Below are positions 32,189 to 42,091 of a DNA stretch of 42,091 nt, in pieces. Source of the stretch: a virus. A program made the position numbers and the translations under genes. Positions within the stretch are counted from its first letter, which is position 1. The number at the start of each line of letters is the position of its first letter. Under the pieces are notes generated by a model. The model did not search any database. It saw only the letters and a program-made list of their open reading frames with translations, and had not been told where the DNA came from. Location of the stretch: positions 1-42,091 of the IMG/VR virus record IMGVR_UViG_3300025120_000148. One strand, written 5' to 3'.

Positions 32189-34624
32189 CTACCGAGGGTT
32201 AAATTCAGCCAAATCGAAGCCATCTAGGCTGTCTTCGTTGGATTCGAAATTAACAGGTGGTAGTTTTTCTTGTCTCTGTTGAATAAGTTTAGATTGCTCT
32301 GTGTTTTGTTGACTTATTCTAGAGGACTTAGCTTCTTCTCTTTGGTTTTCTCTTTGATTAATTGCTTCTTCTTGAACTCCTTTTAATTGCATATTAAGCT
32401 GAAACTCATATGTCATTAACTGTTGTTTTAAAGAAGCTTCGTTTTTCAACTTCTCTATTTCAAAAGCCACTTCTGCTTGCTTCTCTCTCATCTTCATTTC
32501 ACCTTCTAATTGTATCTTTTGCATAGCTGCATCCGAAGCCATCTTCTGAGACTGGAACTGAGTTTGAGCATTCATCTGTTGTTTCATTGCGGCTGCTTCT
32601 CTATCAGCATCTTGCTTTCTTTTTCTCTTAAGCTTCAACAATTGATTAGCCATTTTTAAATTTCTAACCTCTCTAATATCAATAGCGTCTTCTAAATTAA
32701 TATCACCTTTAGATAATGCCATTTGAACATTTTGTTCTAGCATAGCTTTTTGTTCCTCATCAGGAGCTACTTCAATAAATATACCGAAGTCATATAGGTA
32801 TAAGTCTTTAATATCTTCTATTCTCTTTACATTGTATTTACCTATCTGATTAGCAAATTCTTCTTTAAAATCAGCATACTCTAATAAATCAGCAATTCTT
32901 AATGATAATCCTTCAGCAATTGTTCTGGTGATATATAAACTACCTTCTAGTATATGTCTAGTAGCTGTGTTAGAATTAAGAGCTGCTAATTTCTGTACAC
33001 CAACTAATGCATTTGGATCAGGAGTTGAGCCGTCTCTAGCCTCGTTCAGGCCTGTCACTGCTCTAATCATTCCTAGGTAATGATTGTAATTTCCTATCAA
33101 TGCAGCCATCTTAGATTGACCACTACTAGTATTTAATTGCTGAATTGGAACTCTAGCGTTGTTAAATTCTCCATCTTGAGTATAGCTTCTACCTACCACA
33201 CTACCAGTCTGGAAGTAAAGTCTTAATGCATCCTCTGGGTTATACGCCTGTCCTGTACCTAAATCCACTTCACTAAGCCCGTCAGCGTCTATAAACACAC
33301 CATCTGGAACCATTTTAGCAACTACCTGCTGTAGTTTTAAATGGCTTATTTGAATTTGGTCTGCAAAAGGAATCATTCTTCTAACCAAAGATTCAATATT
33401 ACCTTTGTACATTCTTGGAGCGCAAGCCACATAGTTAGGCATCGCGTGTTGAGAAGCTGATTTTGGTCTAACCATATTCTTAGCCATTTCCCATTTCAAC
33501 ACAATATTAGAACCAGCTACCATTATACCTTCGTACCAAACTTCAATAGTTTTTTCAACTCTCTCAAACTTACCCTCCTTCATCATATCTTTTGGTGGGT
33601 TGAAAGTGTCATCCTTTTCAATCATTCTTTCTCCACCACCTTCTAATATCTTTTTCTTATATACAAACTTTTTAGTAGTTTTATAATTGAAATAAATAAG
33701 TGTAGCAGTATCCTTAAAGAATAAACTATTTTCGTAAAATCTATTTACATTATAGGAATCGTACCAAGTCTGACTATACTGTGAAATCTTTTTTAAATCA
33801 TCTCTAGTTAAATCAGGATCAATCTTAACAAGTTCTGCTATTGGAAGTGTTTTAACTTCTCCCCAATAAAAACAATCTTTAAAATGAGGGTCTTCTGTGT
33901 AGCTATACACTACATTAGCTGGGTCAACATAATCTACTTGAACACCACTACCTGGTAAGAACTGGTGTTTAGCCATACCTACACCCAAAACGGTCATATC
34001 GTAATCAATTCTTTTCTTGGTGTCTTGATAATGATTTTCGTCTAGCACTGTATTAATAGCCACCTCTTCTGCAATTTCAATAGAAGGCTTGTATTTTAAT
34101 TGCATATGCAATTCAAGTTCTTCGTCATTTTCTGGAAGTTCTTCTACATCCGTCATAAACGGGTCAATACCAAATGACTCTTTGAAGTCAGCAAAGATAT
34201 CTTTATTCAACATATCTCTTTCTACTAAATTCTGGTATTTATTTCTGTGCTCACTAGACAAAGCATCTTGCGCATATGCCTTAACGTGAAATAATCTGTT
34301 TGACATTCCATTAACTACAATGTCCACAAACTTAGGGAGTATTGGAACTGGAGTCCAATCTAGATTCAGGTAAGATAAGTCACCGTCAACAGATAATTCG
34401 TTTTTGTATTTAGCAACAGATTGTTCACCTCTTGCATATCTCCTTAATTGATTAAAAGATTGAAGCTGGCTATAATACCTACAGCTACCTCCACCTTTTC
34501 TAAACCACTCATATTGAATGGCCTGACCTACCTGTAATCCATACTCCATTGTTGCTTTATCAGCATCAGTGGCAAATTGATCTGGAAAACCTGCGGGGTT
34601 TATTAATAATTCAACGTCTTTCAT
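32189..34624 (-). CDS. Portal protein, 811 aa
   Basis: Dodecameric head-to-tail channel. The N-terminal and central part (about 1-600) has portal-like features: EYGLQVGQAIQYEWFRKGGG, a stem/clip region with IDYDMTVLGVGMAKHQFLPG, and a run of helices (NYNHYLGMIRAVTGLNEARD) typical of crAss-like portals. A 140-residue Gln/Lys/Glu-rich coiled coil (about 640-780) follows and then an acidic tail. Immediately follows TerL. Large for a portal, but crAss-type portals are also about 800 aa. Confidence 0.8.
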   Translation of the reverse strand: MKDVELLINPAGFPDQFATDADKATMEYGLQVGQAIQYEWFRKGGGSCRYYSQLQSFNQLRRYARGEQSVAKYKNELSVDGDLSYLNLDWTPVPILPKFVDIVVNGMSNRLFHVKAYAQDALSSEHRNKYQNLVERDMLNKDIFADFKESFGIDPFMTDVEELPENDEELELHMQLKYKPSIEIAEEVAINTVLDENHYQDTKKRIDYDMTVLGVGMAKHQFLPGSGVQVDYVDPANVVYSYTEDPHFKDCFYWGEVKTLPIAELVKIDPDLTRDDLKKISQYSQTWYDSYNVNRFYENSLFFKDTATLIYFNYKTTKKFVYKKKILEGGGERMIEKDDTFNPPKDMMKEGKFERVEKTIEVWYEGIMVAGSNIVLKWEMAKNMVRPKSASQHAMPNYVACAPRMYKGNIESLVRRMIPFADQIQISHLKLQQVVAKMVPDGVFIDADGLSEVDLGTGQAYNPEDALRLYFQTGSVVGRSYTQDGEFNNARVPIQQLNTSSGQSKMAALIGNYNHYLGMIRAVTGLNEARDGSTPDPNALVGVQKLAALNSNTATRHILEGSLYITRTIAEGLSLRIADLLEYADFKEEFANQIGKYNVKRIEDIKDLYLYDFGIFIEVAPDEEQKAMLEQNVQMALSKGDINLEDAIDIREVRNLKMANQLLKLKRKRKQDADREAAAMKQQMNAQTQFQSQKMASDAAMQKIQLEGEMKMREKQAEVAFEIEKLKNEASLKQQLMTYEFQLNMQLKGVQEEAINQRENQREEAKSSRISQQNTEQSKLIQQRQEKLPPVNFESNEDSLDGFDLAEFNPR

Positions 34625-36796
34625 TTATTTGAGTAATTCGCTTATATTCCCCTTGTTTGCATACCTTGCAAAGTTAATGCTTATTTTTGACTCTTTTTTG
34701 ATAGGAGTGTACAAATGTTTTTGATTAGCCATTATAGCTAAACCAGAGCTAATAGAAGCATCAAATTTAGTTCTTTTATTAATATCAAAACGAGCCCAGT
34801 CTTCTAGAGTTCTAGTAAAATACATAGACCCCATTTCATCCATTGCTCTAAACTCGCTAACCATATCTAGTCCGACATATTTTTCTATGTAAGACTCAAT
34901 AGCAGATGCGTGAGATTGCTTAACATCTTCAGATGTATTGGGTATACCACCTAGTTCTTTTTCTGTTTTAGACAGCTTATTAAATTGCTTGTCTGGTCTA
35001 TTCATACAAAATCCTCTATAACCTCTGTTTTTAAAATGATACAAAAGTCTTGGTTTGTTATTTTCACAAAGTATTGGCATACCGTAAAACACACAAGCCA
35101 TTAACACTTCTTCAAAAAATATCTCTGCGGTTTGTGGTCTAGCTACATACTCTAAAAAAAACTCATTACTTGGAGCATCATCCATATTGAATTTAGTCAT
35201 TCCGTGTAAAGCACCATTAGAACCTTTTCCACCAACCGTTCCTGAAATATCATAACTATCACAACCAAATGAACCAATATGCTCATTACTAGGGTGGTAT
35301 CTTCCGTTTCTATGTTCCTTTCGGTTTTGAAGTTCATATTTAGGTATCCAACTAACCAAGAACCTCCCTGTGTTATTTGGAGTCCATATTACTCTAGAGT
35401 CTTTTATTCCGTTCTCCCAATGAAAACTACCTCTAGTTAAATACTTAGCCTTCATTAACCCGTCATTGTAATCTATCTGTTGGTATATTTTAGTTAAATT
35501 AAACAGAGACTGTTTACTCTCATCTCTAAATGCGTGAGACTCTGTTCTAGGAAATTGTCTATAAAATTCATTTAAGGCATCTGCATCATTTTTTAAAGAA
35601 TCAACTTCATTCTGCCAATAGTCAACAGCTCCTGTAGTAATGTACTCACCATCATTTCCTTGAATAGGTTTGTCTGGAGTTTTTAAAACAGGCATTCCAA
35701 ACTTATCTATATATCCTTCAAAATTCCATTCCATAGGAATAAATAAGGAATACAACCCAGATTTAGTTTGGCCATTGGCATTTCTTGACTTAGCATCGGA
35801 ATCATAATATAGCTTCTTAAAATTTGCACCACCTTTATCCAATGCATTAGAAGTTGAGCCCATCATACACTTCCCAATAACTTTACTACCTAACCTCAAG
35901 CAGGTTTTTGTAACACGCCAATTGTTTAGTATATTCTCTGGCTTTTCCCACTTTCCACTTTCATCGTGTATTAGTAGCTGTAATTTTTCTCCATCATAAG
36001 AGTTGTCAGAAGTGTTACGCCAATCTATTGTGGTGTCTAACCCTTCAAGTTCTTGATTGTCAGATATATACATATTGCGCTTAGTAATCTTACTTGCTGG
36101 AACACGATAAGATAATTCTGTTTTTGGTTTATCCATACCATCTTGAATAGGCTTAAAAAAGAATGGGTAGTTGTTAGATATAGGAACTATTTTATCTGTA
36201 AACATTTTCTTTGCATCCGTTCCAGTTTTAGACAACACTCCTACTCTGGCGTCTTTAGATATGGTTGCGGTATTTACAGTTTCTGAAGAACCCATAAATG
36301 AAAAACCAGAACGTCTTATCTTTAAGTAACACATTCCAAAACTTCTTTTATCTGCCTTGCAAGCTTCCCAAAACAAAAAGAATATTCTATTAGCTTCTCT
36401 AAACTCAGGATGACCTACATCAATCTTTGTCCATTGCAAATAACAATAATGAGTGCCTGTAATGTATATGGGATTACCATTGTTATTAAACCAAAAACCC
36501 TCTTCTCTTCTGTCAAATTCTTGTTCAATATAACCTACCCAAGTATCTTTAAAGTCAGAAGACATTTCGTTCCATTGAAATATGGATTTTATTTTAGATA
36601 AAGATTTAGGGCACTCAAAAGGTTGCCAACATTTTTCTTCATTAGAGTAATATTTAGAAGGTGTTTTAGGTAGGCCAATTTTCAACCCCTGAACTTCGTA
36701 TATATCACCTACTGTTCCATCCTTAGAAATAACTATAATATCGTACTTTTCATTGTATCCATATTCCCAGTTTTTGGCTTTGTTCTTTTTAGCCAT
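34625..36796 (-). CDS. terL: Terminase large subunit, about 723 aa
   Basis: Packaging motor ATPase and nuclease. I use the ATG at 36796; a TTG at 36850 opens the frame earlier and overlaps the previous gene. The ATPase has an odd Walker A, KIRRSGFS (about 159-166, the usual Lys before Ser is Phe), and Walker B LLIHDESGK (D278, E279). The nuclease part starts near FGCDSYDISG, with later acidic residues and LLYHFKNRGYRGFC. The rest matches crAss-like TerL in length. It abuts the portal gene with no gap. Confidence 0.85.
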   Translation of the reverse strand: MAKKNKAKNWEYGYNEKYDIIVISKDGTVGDIYEVQGLKIGLPKTPSKYYSNEEKCWQPFECPKSLSKIKSIFQWNEMSSDFKDTWVGYIEQEFDRREEGFWFNNNGNPIYITGTHYCYLQWTKIDVGHPEFREANRIFFLFWEACKADKRSFGMCYLKIRRSGFSFMGSSETVNTATISKDARVGVLSKTGTDAKKMFTDKIVPISNNYPFFFKPIQDGMDKPKTELSYRVPASKITKRNMYISDNQELEGLDTTIDWRNTSDNSYDGEKLQLLIHDESGKWEKPENILNNWRVTKTCLRLGSKVIGKCMMGSTSNALDKGGANFKKLYYDSDAKSRNANGQTKSGLYSLFIPMEWNFEGYIDKFGMPVLKTPDKPIQGNDGEYITTGAVDYWQNEVDSLKNDADALNEFYRQFPRTESHAFRDESKQSLFNLTKIYQQIDYNDGLMKAKYLTRGSFHWENGIKDSRVIWTPNNTGRFLVSWIPKYELQNRKEHRNGRYHPSNEHIGSFGCDSYDISGTVGGKGSNGALHGMTKFNMDDAPSNEFFLEYVARPQTAEIFFEEVLMACVFYGMPILCENNKPRLLYHFKNRGYRGFCMNRPDKQFNKLSKTEKELGGIPNTSEDVKQSHASAIESYIEKYVGLDMVSEFRAMDEMGSMYFTRTLEDWARFDINKRTKFDASISSGLAIMANQKHLYTPIKKESKISINFARYANKGNISELLK

Positions 36797-36827
36797 TGCC
36801 GTCCTAGGAACAACATCTTGTAAAACT

Positions 36828-37094
36828 TTATTTAGACCTTCTCTCTGCAAAACCTTGGTTGCTACTTGTTTTATTTACACTATTTAAAGCCTCTTCTTCA
36901 GCGTCAATACGATTTAGTATTTCAAAAGCATCGAATATAGCTAGCTTTTTTGTTGCTGCTGCATTCTTTAGCCTATCTGCTGCCAACTCATCATCTGGGT
37001 CAGGCTTAATAATTTTTTCTTGAGCTACTTTTATTAATTGCTCTACTGCTGCTCTACCTGCTTGAATAATTTTTAATTTAATTTCTTTACTCAT
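36828..37094 (-). CDS. Small helical protein upstream of TerL, possible small terminase, 88 aa
   Basis: Short, helical and charged: KEIKLKIIQAGRAAVEQLIK, then DPDDELAADRLKNAAATKKL and AIFDAFEILNRIDAEEEALN. It directly precedes TerL with a start overlap on the 187-aa gene (ATGA). Position suggests a small terminase or packaging recognition factor, but no HTH is evident. Similar proteins occur in crAss-like genomes as I recall, unassigned. Confidence 0.5.
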   Translation of the reverse strand: MSKEIKLKIIQAGRAAVEQLIKVAQEKIIKPDPDDELAADRLKNAAATKKLAIFDAFEILNRIDAEEEALNSVNKTSSNQGFAERRSK

Positions 37095-37654
37095 AACATC
37101 ATAGTTATATTTTTAGATTTCATTCTATAAAGAGTTTTGTCATCTATTTTAAACTCATACTCAGACTCTGGCCTAAAACAAACCTTATCTCCTTCTTTTA
37201 CACCTAAAGAAGTTAGTTCTGGATTAGTTATCTCAATAGTTCCTGTAAGAGCTTGATATTTATCACTATTAAATATAACAGATCCTTCTTTACTAGAAGG
37301 CTTAACAAAACAATAATCTAAATGAGACTTCCACTTGCCATCTTGTTTATACATAAAAAACTGAGTAGGTTCTACTATAAATAGATTGTCTTTTAAAAAA
37401 CTTCTACCACTTTTTTCTCTACCCTTCATATCATTGTAATACTTAAATACATTATGATGTACTACCAATATGTCACCTACTTTTACCTCTCCCTTGTAGT
37501 TTAGTGGCGTAGCTTCTACATTAGCAAAACGATTAGAGACAGTATGATCTTCTTTAGAGGAGCTAGTAATAAAGTCTATGCCTCCTATTTTTTTTACATT
37601 ATCGTACCGAGTGTCATTAACCGGAGTTACAATAAAACCAAAAGGTGACTTCAT
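37091..37654 (-). CDS. GroES-like co-chaperonin-fold protein, 187 aa
   Basis: Resembles Cpn10/GroES. Residues 6-50 (GFIVTPVNDTRYDNV, then KKIGGIDFI with the GGI tripeptide at 24-26 that GroES mobile loops use to bind GroEL), then VKVGDILVV (58-65) and, after a roughly 85-residue insert, a second copy at 152-187 (VKEGDKVCF, then EYEFKIDDKTLYRMKS and NITMML), which follows the closing GroES strand pattern. T4 gp31 is a precedent for phage GroES in head assembly. Position before TerL fits. Match is by motif only. Confidence 0.6.
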   Translation of the reverse strand: MKSPFGFIVTPVNDTRYDNVKKIGGIDFITSSSKEDHTVSNRFANVEATPLNYKGEVKVGDILVVHHNVFKYYNDMKGREKSGRSFLKDNLFIVEPTQFFMYKQDGKWKSHLDYCFVKPSSKEGSVIFNSDKYQALTGTIEITNPELTSLGVKEGDKVCFRPESEYEFKIDDKTLYRMKSKNITMML

Positions 37655-37655
37655 A

Positions 37656-37874
37656 CTAAAAGTTGATATTATATTCTATAGAGACTGGAATAGTGGCATT
37701 AAAACTTTTCCAAAGTACAATTTCGTTTTCTCTAATAATCCATATTTTAAAACAATTTTTTTCTTGTCTTATGTGGTGTATGGTGTAATTACCCCCTAGA
37801 ACATCTTGTCCAACAAGGTAGTGCATTGCCCCAGACTTATAGTCAGGACCAACTGATATTTTTCTAATTTCCAT
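37656..37874 (-). CDS. Conserved-looking small protein, 72 aa
   Basis: MEIRKISVGPDYKSGAMHYL, GQDVLGGNYTIHHI and WKSFNATIPVSIEYNINF: a compact beta-rich protein. I recall similar proteins beside the GroES-like gene in other Bacteroidota phages, with no known role. It ends one base before the next gene and follows the tail fibre gene by 10 bases. Confidence 0.65.
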   Translation of the reverse strand: MEIRKISVGPDYKSGAMHYLVGQDVLGGNYTIHHIRQEKNCFKIWIIRENEIVLWKSFNATIPVSIEYNINF

Positions 37875-37884
37875 TTCATTTAAT

Positions 37885-39339
37885 TTAATATATAGTTAAT
37901 GCTGGTCTAAGAGTTGTTGCAGTGAAGGTATTGCCTTCTGCTCCAGTTTTTAGTTCTGTAGGTAAAGTTGGATTACCATATATTGTAGCTGCATAATCAA
38001 CATTAGATAATTTTCCTGAAGCTGCAAAAACACCACTACCACTATTACCACCAACACATCTAAGTGCAACTACGTAATTTGTTCCAGCAGTTAGGGCTAA
38101 CCCTGAGCCATCATCTGCTGTTAAGGAAATAACTTTTCGTTTAGTAGTTGAACCACTTGAGCTTCCGTGACCTAATCTAACATTAGAAGTGGTGCTGTTA
38201 ATGCCTTGTTCTACGTAGGTGTAAATAGCCACTTCAATAGTTGTTGTAGTTGGAACTGATTCAAATTGAAGTTTTATTGAGCTAGCTGTAAAATTACTAT
38301 CGACAGTTGTTGTCATTAGATATGCTGCATTTACATCATTTGCAGAAGTTACTGTATCTGCATCAGCCATATCTATAATAGTATGCCCTGCAGAACCAGG
38401 GACTGCCCAAGTATTATCACCTCTTAAAAATGTTGTAGCACTTGCTGTTCCACCTGCTGATAAATCTGCAGTTACAGTTACAGGACCTGTAGTAGCGCTA
38501 TTAGGTGTTAAATCAATAAATGTGCCATCTGTAGTAGTTACGGAAGCAACACCACTACTACCTGATGGGGTAGTTATCCAGTTTCCAACACCAGAAGAGT
38601 TAACTTCTAATATTCTTCCTCCACTAACAGCTGTTTGTGCAGCTATTTTGTTTGGTAAAGTTATAGAATAACTAAGTGGACTTCCACTATGGTTAGGGCC
38701 TATAAACTCTACCCAATGGTTATTATTAGAGCAATTAAATTTTAAATTACTTGCATTTCCACTAGCTGTACCATCTCCTTTTAAAATTGTAGGATTACCA
38801 ATAGAGATAACTGAACCAGTATCTGTTATAGTAGAATCTTCTATACCTGTTCCACCTGTAGACCATTTACTTAATGTGTTTGCAGTACCTGTTCCTGTAA
38901 CTGTACCCGTACCTGTTGGCGTTGCCCAAGTGCCATCTTTTCTTAAAAAGTTATTATTATGAGTTGCATTACCTGCTAAAACTAAACCAGCAAGGTAATT
39001 ATTCCCACTGCCCATAACATTATAAGTCGTGTTAGTTGGAGTTGACCAATTTCCTTGATAATCTAAATATTGACCAGCTGAACCACCTGTTGTTCCAAGT
39101 GTTATAGTACCAGCTCCGGTTATAGGGTTTTCCCCTGTTAAAGTAAGTCCTGCAAGACCATTTAAAGAAAAACCTACACTAGTAACTGTTCCTGCTCCAG
39201 TTCCACTATAAAGATTAGCTATGCTTTGTAAGGTAAATGTCTTTGTTTCTTTTGAAGAAGCGTCTGTTCCTATTACATAATCAGTCCCTAAAGGGCTTGC
39301 TTTGGTGGGATAGGTGGTAGTGTTACTTATTTTCGACAT
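37885..39339 (-). CDS. Tail fibre protein, 484 aa
   Basis: Ser/Thr/Gly-rich fibre. N-terminal attachment-like part (TTTYPTKASPLGTDYVIG), then repeated units: QYLDYQGNWSTP (about 89-100), NNFLRKDGTWATP (about 129-141) and TTFLRGDNTWAVP (about 301-313), a pattern of Bacteroidota phage fibres. The C-terminal 170 residues look globular (IEVAIYTYVEQGINSTTSNV) and could bind the receptor. No chaperone autocleavage motif was seen. Confidence 0.75.
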   Translation of the reverse strand: MSKISNTTTYPTKASPLGTDYVIGTDASSKETKTFTLQSIANLYSGTGAGTVTSVGFSLNGLAGLTLTGENPITGAGTITLGTTGGSAGQYLDYQGNWSTPTNTTYNVMGSGNNYLAGLVLAGNATHNNNFLRKDGTWATPTGTGTVTGTGTANTLSKWSTGGTGIEDSTITDTGSVISIGNPTILKGDGTASGNASNLKFNCSNNNHWVEFIGPNHSGSPLSYSITLPNKIAAQTAVSGGRILEVNSSGVGNWITTPSGSSGVASVTTTDGTFIDLTPNSATTGPVTVTADLSAGGTASATTFLRGDNTWAVPGSAGHTIIDMADADTVTSANDVNAAYLMTTTVDSNFTASSIKLQFESVPTTTTIEVAIYTYVEQGINSTTSNVRLGHGSSSGSTTKRKVISLTADDGSGLALTAGTNYVVALRCVGGNSGSGVFAASGKLSNVDYAATIYGNPTLPTELKTGAEGNTFTATTLRPALTIY

Positions 39340-41710: not shown

Positions 41711-42091
41711 TTAAGGTACGTTTGTTGATAAAACTGCTCCATTTTTTACTGTTCCTGTTAATCCATTTCCAGAAGAGTCTGCTGTAGTAACTACTCCAGC
41801 ATTGGTTGTAAGTGATTCAAATCTAGACCATAATACTGGACTTAAAGGTAGAATATTATTTGGGGTGCCACCATTGTAAATAGCCGCAACTTGTGGCCCT
41901 GTTAATTCTACGTTAAATATCGCTACTTCGTCTATTAAACCCTCTGCATAATCTAAACCTGAACTACCCCAAGCAACTCCATATGATAAAGGAGCACTAC
42001 CATTTGTCATACCAGTGTAAGTGCCATTATTTGAATCAATATAGCTACTAGCTTCAACGCCATTAACATAAATTTTCATACCTGAATTAGT
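41711..42091 (-). CDS. C-terminal part of a LamG-type adhesin (partial)
   Basis: The frame is open through the right edge (127 codons in phase, from TNSG onward), so the N-terminus lies outside. The internal ATG at 42079 is not the start. Residues TNSGMKIYVNGVEASSYI, then YAEGLIDEVAIFNVELTGPQ and VAAIYNGG follow the LamG/concanavalin (Laminin_G_3) jelly-roll pattern: the YVNG strand and the IDEVAIFNxxLT segment. Likely the receptor-binding domain of a tail adhesin. Confidence 0.75.
   Translation of the reverse strand, partial: TNSGMKIYVNGVEASSYIDSNNGTYTGMTNGSAPLSYGVAWGSSGLDYAEGLIDEVAIFNVELTGPQVAAIYNGGTPNNILPLSPVLWSRFESLTTNAGVVTTADSSGNGLTGTVKNGAVLSTNVP

Follow-up and report, generated by a model that had tools for sequence, protein, structure and literature searches.

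A phage protein with two predicted GroES-fold domains is encoded beside the terminase gene in genomes that also carry a single-domain GroES and, usually, GroEL

Results

The tandem GroES-like gene lies in a head and packaging operon

The DNA analyzed here, referred to as the window, is a 42-kb viral fragment from IMG/VR (IMGVR_UViG_3300025120_000148), and the features discussed below are listed with their coordinates in Table 1. The initial annotation had described a GroES-like protein encoded in the packaging region. We find its open reading frame on the minus strand at exactly the coordinates that had been given, and the full translation is MKSPFGFIVTPVNDTRYDNVKKIGGIDFITSSSKEDHTVSNRFANVEATPLNYKGEVKVGDILVVHHNVFKYYNDMKGREKSGRSFLKDNLFIVEPTQFFMYKQDGKWKSHLDYCFVKPSSKEGSVIFNSDKYQALTGTIEITNPELTSLGVKEGDKVCFRPESEYEFKIDDKTLYRMKSKNITMML. 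The sequence elements on which that description was built are also present in the protein: the loop sequence DNVKKIGGIDFI occupies residues 18 to 29, VKVGDILVV residues 57 to 65, VKEGDKVCF residues 152 to 160, and the closing-strand sequence EYEFKIDDKTLYRMKS residues 165 to 180. The assignment to the packaging region holds as well, as the gene sits in a head and packaging operon, directly before the terminase.

Table 1. Features of the window, with positions on the 42-kb fragment and the evidence for each
Feature	Position	Strand	Evidence
Tandem GroES-like protein, 187 aa	37091..37654	-	ORF and translation, Pfam, PHROG, AlphaFold2 model, purifying selection
N-terminal predicted GroES-fold domain (residues 1-112)	37319..37654	-	modelled alone, PDB matches
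N-domain mobile-loop region (residues 18-41), G-G-I-D-F-I at 24-29	37532..37603	-	model confidence, conservation
N-domain family signature HHNVFKYYNDMKGREKSGRSFLKD (residues 66-89)	37388..37459	-	family's most conserved part
C-terminal GroES domain (residues 113-187)	37094..37318	-	Pfam Cpn10 124-184, hhalign
C-domain loop (residues 120-135), variable	37250..37297	-	column counts in 45 sequences
72-aa ORF directly upstream of the tandem gene	37656..37874	-	alignment of equivalent small ORFs
88-aa ORF between the tandem gene and TerL	36828..37094	-	position, alignment
Terminase large subunit (TerL)	34625..36850	-	PHROG 6681, 1.7e-174
Portal protein	32189..34624	-	PHROG 6547, 3.5e-145
Virion structural protein, 482 aa	29531..30979	-	PHROG 13704, 3.2e-102

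The terminase of the window is related to those of the Flavobacterium elemo phages, the Cellulophaga phages phi38:1 and phi19:3 and the Maribacter phage Panino, and weakly to those of crAss-like phages. From this kinship, which is also the basis for the host assignment, we infer that the window comes from a marine Bacteroidota podovirus-like phage. The portal gene is followed by a gene for a 380-aa protein and then by that for the 482-aa virion protein. The latter is probably the major capsid protein, since the resulting order of TerL, portal, an intervening gene and capsid would be that of Crassvirales cr10_1, and its position makes it a candidate client of the lid proposed in the Discussion.

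The order of 72-aa ORF, tandem gene, small ORF where one is present, TerL and portal is kept in elemo, Panino, phi38:1 and the Manatee Spring phage. Counterparts of the 72-aa ORF, with a conserved RKIS...WK pattern, are found at the same place in these four, and it is possible that its product is a partner of the tandem GroES. The 88-aa ORF can be aligned with ORFs at the same place in the Manatee Spring phage, phi19:3 and Gundel, and it may encode the small terminase subunit. A comparison of the window with L082, L083 and L105 showed that elemo, Panino and phi38:1, which have no such small ORF, have a TerL of 876 to 879 aa as opposed to 741 aa, about 135 aa longer. This suggests that the longer TerL carries a fused small terminase-like domain in these three phages.

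Two further ORFs of the window lie outside this block. A 484-aa Gly/Thr/Ser-rich protein (37885-39339) has no significant family match and is probably tail-fibre-like, and the ORF cut off at the right end (41711-42079), which aligns at several sites within a repetitive ORF of 1390 aa in G001, the nearest long relative, probably forms the end of a long protein made of repeats.

The tandem protein belongs to a phage family under purifying selection

The GroES-like identity proposed at the outset is borne out by Pfam Cpn10 (PF00166), which matches residues 124 to 184, in the C half only, at 23.1 bits against a curated cut-off of 21.1. Nearly the whole protein is covered by PHROG 13932, "co-chaperonin GroES" (residues 1 to 183 against profile positions 1 to 195 of 200, E 1.3e-23), whose members include phi38:1 gp089, phi19:3 gp101, elemo gp30 and Panino CDS0088. 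With homology over the whole length and the same place before TerL and portal, the window protein is part of this family. It is 51.6% identical to the protein of the Manatee Spring phage, 37% to that of Panino and 34% to that of elemo. The Cpn10 profile matches 17 of 29 tandem relatives at E<=1, and the elemo and Panino proteins gave no Cpn10 match. A search of viral contigs with the tandem protein returned 579 related stretches; the Panino protein returned no relatives from viral contigs. In the PDB, a sequence search with the single protein gave no match, and a search with the family profile gave only two GroES chains, at E of about 0.4 and on the C half.

Against near relatives, dN/dS of the tandem gene is 0.05 to 0.23, so the gene is under strong purifying selection and its product is a real, selected protein. 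The most conserved part of the family is the HHN...DMKGR region of the N half, and not the loop; the columns H66, H67, N68, F70, G78 and D89 are invariant across 29 sequences. Judged from conservation, this suggests a further constraint beyond GroEL binding.

We also searched a genome collection for cellular tandem GroES. The 12 hits were contigs in metagenome-assembled genomes (MAGs) of unrelated taxa, including Aliivibrio, Pseudomonadales, Nitrosomonadaceae and an Aenigmatarchaeote. These are most likely phage sequences binned by mistake, and we claim no cellular case. One family member (L126, CP070801.1) lies within a 1.05-Mb "chromosome" of an Aenigmatarchaeote MAG, probably an error of binning or assembly.

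Both halves of the protein are predicted to adopt a GroES fold

An AlphaFold2 model of the full-length protein, made from 29 sequences, has a pLDDT of 79.8 and a pTM of 0.74, and its two weakest stretches, residues 32 to 36 and 128 to 131, are in each case the loop after the first strand of the half. The best PDB matches in Foldseek are 7ekq_R (E 7.9e-5) and 7ekq_Q (E 2.0e-4), which align end to end. Their TM-score over the query is 0.54, compared to about 0.29 for single GroES chains, which therefore cover one half of the tandem protein. By sequence search, 7ekq_R and 7ekq_Q are the Cpn20 co-chaperonin subunit and Chaperonin 23, and chain P is Chaperonin 11. In 7ekq there are two Cpn20 chains and one each of Cpn23 and Cpn11, by our own sum seven GroES domains. 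Chains of the alcohol-dehydrogenase-type GroES-like fold occur only far down the Foldseek list and with low probability, and this fold was rejected.

The N half required a separate test. In hhalign, the C half aligns with single-domain GroES over 73 columns (96.6% probability, E 5e-10), whereas the family-wide N half reaches 14%, which is not significant, and the comparison of N-half and C-half profiles reaches 2.7%, which is no detectable similarity. Together with a Pfam match confined to the C half, these values are what one would look for if a single GroES domain were preceded by an unrelated domain that recruits substrate. We therefore modelled residues 1 to 112 alone (33 sequences, pLDDT 85.0), and the five best PDB matches of this model were all Cpn10/GroES, the best of them with a probability of 1.00 and an E-value of only 0.016. 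The N halves from Elemovirus align in register with single GroES at 70% probability, and the scores of three N halves exceed 10 bits, against a maximum of 5.7 among 900 shuffles. With the end-to-end match of the full-length model to Cpn20/Cpn23 also speaking against it, an unrelated N-terminal domain seems to us very improbable.

In these models, the protein is two GroES-fold domains in tandem, and not one GroES with an insert, a reading for which the N half offers structural evidence and the C half evidence from both sequence and structure. Because the two halves have so little profile similarity, duplication is argued here from structure, not from sequence. The initial annotation had proposed a phage co-chaperonin with "an insert or duplication", which might serve the capsid or giant proteins. 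A co-chaperonin is supported by the Cpn10 match and by the GroES-type fold predicted for both the full-length and the N-domain models, the two points on which that proposal had been open to refutation, and of the two architectures duplication is favoured, given that the best full-length matches are themselves tandem proteins, while the insert is not.

Hydrophobic positions of the mobile loop are kept in the N domain only

The N-domain loop region overlaps the lowest-confidence stretch of the model, residues 31 to 40, where the mean pLDDT is 50. The GGI tripeptide noted earlier in this loop is literally present in the window protein but is not a feature of the family: among 45 relatives, G24 is kept in 39, while at position 25 there is G in 16 of them, D in 14 and no residue in the 10 that have a gap. 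What is conserved is G-x-[V/I/L]-[D/E/N]-[F/L]-[I/V], with hydrophobic residues at positions 26, 28 and 29 in almost every relative in which these positions exist and mostly D, E or N at position 27. The Elemovirus loop, NGLIL, is of the classical type and aligns with the SGIII of a phage short GroES. No SG-hydrophobic triplet is found in the C-domain loop across the 45 sequences, and the pLDDT of residues 128 to 131 is below 50. The loops of the short GroES proteins encoded by the same phages read SGLLL, SGLYL, SGILL or SGIII; Panino has SGLEI and phi38:1 has SGMTF. The segment corresponding to the roof hairpin is short in both domains, with 8 residues (N domain) and 9 residues (C domain); E. 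coli GroES has 15 here, and flavobacterial GroES has 10.

Tandem-carrying phages also encode a single-domain GroES and, usually, GroEL

Twenty-four tandem-carrying records were searched for GroEL and GroES, 17 of which are at least 52 kb long and near-complete. A separate single-domain GroES of 84 to 93 aa is encoded in all 17 and a phage GroEL in 16, the exception being phi19:3, in which the tandem gene and the gene for the short GroES are present but no GroEL gene. All four tandem-carrying records that lack a short GroES are fragments, 39 to 48 kb long. In Gundel_1 and cr10_1, which are related to these phages through TerL, no tandem gene adjoins the terminase, and neither GroES nor GroEL was found. 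No GroEL was found in the 42 kb of the window either. On the right, the alignment of the window with G001 ends at about 44 kb of G001, in which GroES and GroEL are encoded at 56 to 58.6 kb, and the absence is explained by the fragment ending about 13 kb before the equivalent site.

The single-domain protein (PHROG 3188) has the GroES fold, and it is the protein matched by the C half of the tandem protein. The two differ in that the short GroES has an intact SG-hydrophobic loop and is encoded near groEL, outside the head operon, whereas the tandem gene lies in the head operon and adjoins neither groEL nor groES. The phage GroELs are 30 to 37% identical to E. coli GroEL, and the residues of the ATP site are mostly intact, with Asp52, Asp87 and Asp398 present wherever the sequence is complete. 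Mass spectrometry has detected phi38:1 GroEL (gp054) both in cells under infection and in free virion preparations (PMC13288928, Table 3). Other papers report GroEL homologues for this phage group (PMC5332604), mention GroEL and GroES in Panino (PMC11590407), and list "chaperonin cpn10" as a core gene of Pervagoviridae (PMC8776804). These phages carry GroEL, a single GroES and a tandem GroES, which is the chaperonin part list of chloroplasts. With a separate GroES and a GroEL of their own in the relatives, the question moves from whether GroES is replaced to why there is a second, double lid.

Discussion

The closest likeness in architecture is to the Cpn20 proteins of chloroplasts and apicoplasts (Cpn21, Chlamydomonas Cpn20, Cpn23), which likewise have two GroES-like domains head to tail in about 20 kDa, and which belong to a system that also holds a GroEL-type barrel and a single-domain Cpn10, as the tandem-carrying phages do. 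Sequence identity to the phage protein is only 12 to 13%, however, and the phage protein has the loop motif in its N domain only; for apicomplexan cpn20, one report describes the mobile loop and roof domain as retained in both domains (PMC3542282). We regard the phage protein as Cpn20-like in architecture but not as a member of Cpn20; common descent is not suggested, and an independent origin is more likely. T4 gp31 is also a phage-encoded co-chaperonin tied to head assembly and gives a weak structural match (1g31, E 0.12). It has no roof loops, a lack believed to help it fold the large capsid protein (PMC6318259), and the roof segments of the tandem protein are short. Unlike the tandem protein, which is double and whose phages own GroES and GroEL, gp31 is single-domain and uses the GroEL of the host.

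On balance, we lean towards the view that the tandem protein is a two-domain GroES-type co-chaperonin that shares seven-domain lids with the short GroES on GroEL and serves head proteins. In chloroplasts, Cpn10 and Cpn20 function as mixed rings of seven GroES domains (PMC5780408), and as the phages hold the same part list, we propose that they form mixed lids too. We hypothesize that tandem and short GroES subunits would co-assemble such that 2a + b = 7, for example as three tandem subunits and one single, and that these lids would cap the phage GroEL, or the host GroEL in phages without their own, such as phi19:3. Expressed with the late head genes, the tandem subunit would redirect the chaperonin towards structural proteins of the phage, of which the major capsid protein is the most plausible client. 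With the hydrophobic loop motif kept in the N domain but not in the C domain, each tandem subunit could provide one strong anchor per two domains, and the lid might bind less tightly or asymmetrically; the shortened roof segments may leave it more open, as in gp31. We further speculate, more tentatively and with some doubt, that these phages independently evolved the chloroplast arrangement as a whole, with their own GroEL and mixed seven-domain lids that are re-tuned late in infection for capsid proteins.

Mixed lids can be doubted on several grounds. The short GroES alone could serve the phage GroEL, the loop of the C domain is degenerate, the middle residue of the N-loop triplet is acidic or Asn in most relatives, unlike in the SGLLL, SGLYL and SGIII of the short lids, residues 66 to 89 are highly conserved outside the loop, and the groEL and groES genes are distant from the tandem gene. 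These doubts keep two other explanations alive. The tandem protein could form a ring of three or four subunits on its own that replaces GroES for the capsid, leaving the general folding of other proteins, of phage or host, to the short GroES. T4 gp31 does this for gp23 and without roof loops (PMC6318259), and the roof segments of 8 and 9 residues as well as the location of the gene among head genes fit such a role. Homo-oligomers of chloroplast Cpn20 work with GroEL, as do GroES/Cpn20 concatamers of six to eight domains (PMC5780408). Six or eight domains would nevertheless mismatch a seven-fold barrel, a homo-oligomer would be held by just three or four strong anchors since the C domain has no loop motif, and the short GroES in every near-complete tandem-carrying genome is left unexplained. 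We consider a stand-alone ring rather unlikely.

Alternatively, the tandem barrel may work away from GroEL as a factor in packaging or head assembly, such as a cap or scaffold on the terminase or portal ring, or on a protease ring. That lids of this kind can serve other rings is indicated by 7ekq itself, in which Cpn11, Cpn20 and Cpn23 were solved with ClpP and not with Cpn60. Such a repurposing would also agree with a position directly before TerL and portal that is fixed in all lineages, with conservation that is strongest outside the loop while the C loop has degenerated, and with the presence of a canonical GroES gene. It is harder to reconcile with the hydrophobic positions kept in the N loop, which in Elemovirus is the classical NGLIL, or with the pattern of gain and loss, which tracks GroES and GroEL instead of the terminase, as Gundel_1 and cr10_1 have the terminase without the tandem gene. 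A function apart from GroEL is thus an unlikely explanation in our judgment.

The family is already annotated, and in the PHROG 13932 records consulted its members are labelled simply GroES or cpn10, with neither the doubleness nor the second, single GroES stated. The two-GroES-domain architecture has so far been described mainly from chloroplasts. In the literature searched, in which subscription papers are thinly covered, we found no description of a double GroES architecture in phages, and no statement that two kinds of lid coexist in them. A tandem co-chaperonin outside the plant lineage, as part of a three-part viral set, therefore appears to be undescribed in these sources. The cultured phages phi38:1, phi19:3, elemo and Panino are among those that show this architecture, accompanied by a single GroES and usually by GroEL, and this phage set offers a small, tractable second case of a question raised by chloroplasts, namely how and why even-numbered double lids fit seven-fold barrels. 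A second suggestion is that these abundant marine relatives of crAss-like phages arrive with a folding machine of their own, complete and customised to their virions.

One further observation concerns the barrel side of the proposed contact. Most phage GroELs of this lineage have Glu in place of Leu234 of E. coli GroEL, a helix-H residue of the apical binding groove (genes compared: L107-L114, L129-L132, L134 and L138). This Glu can be set beside the acidic residue at the middle of the N-loop triplet in the tandem protein; the elemo GroELs keep Leu at this site.
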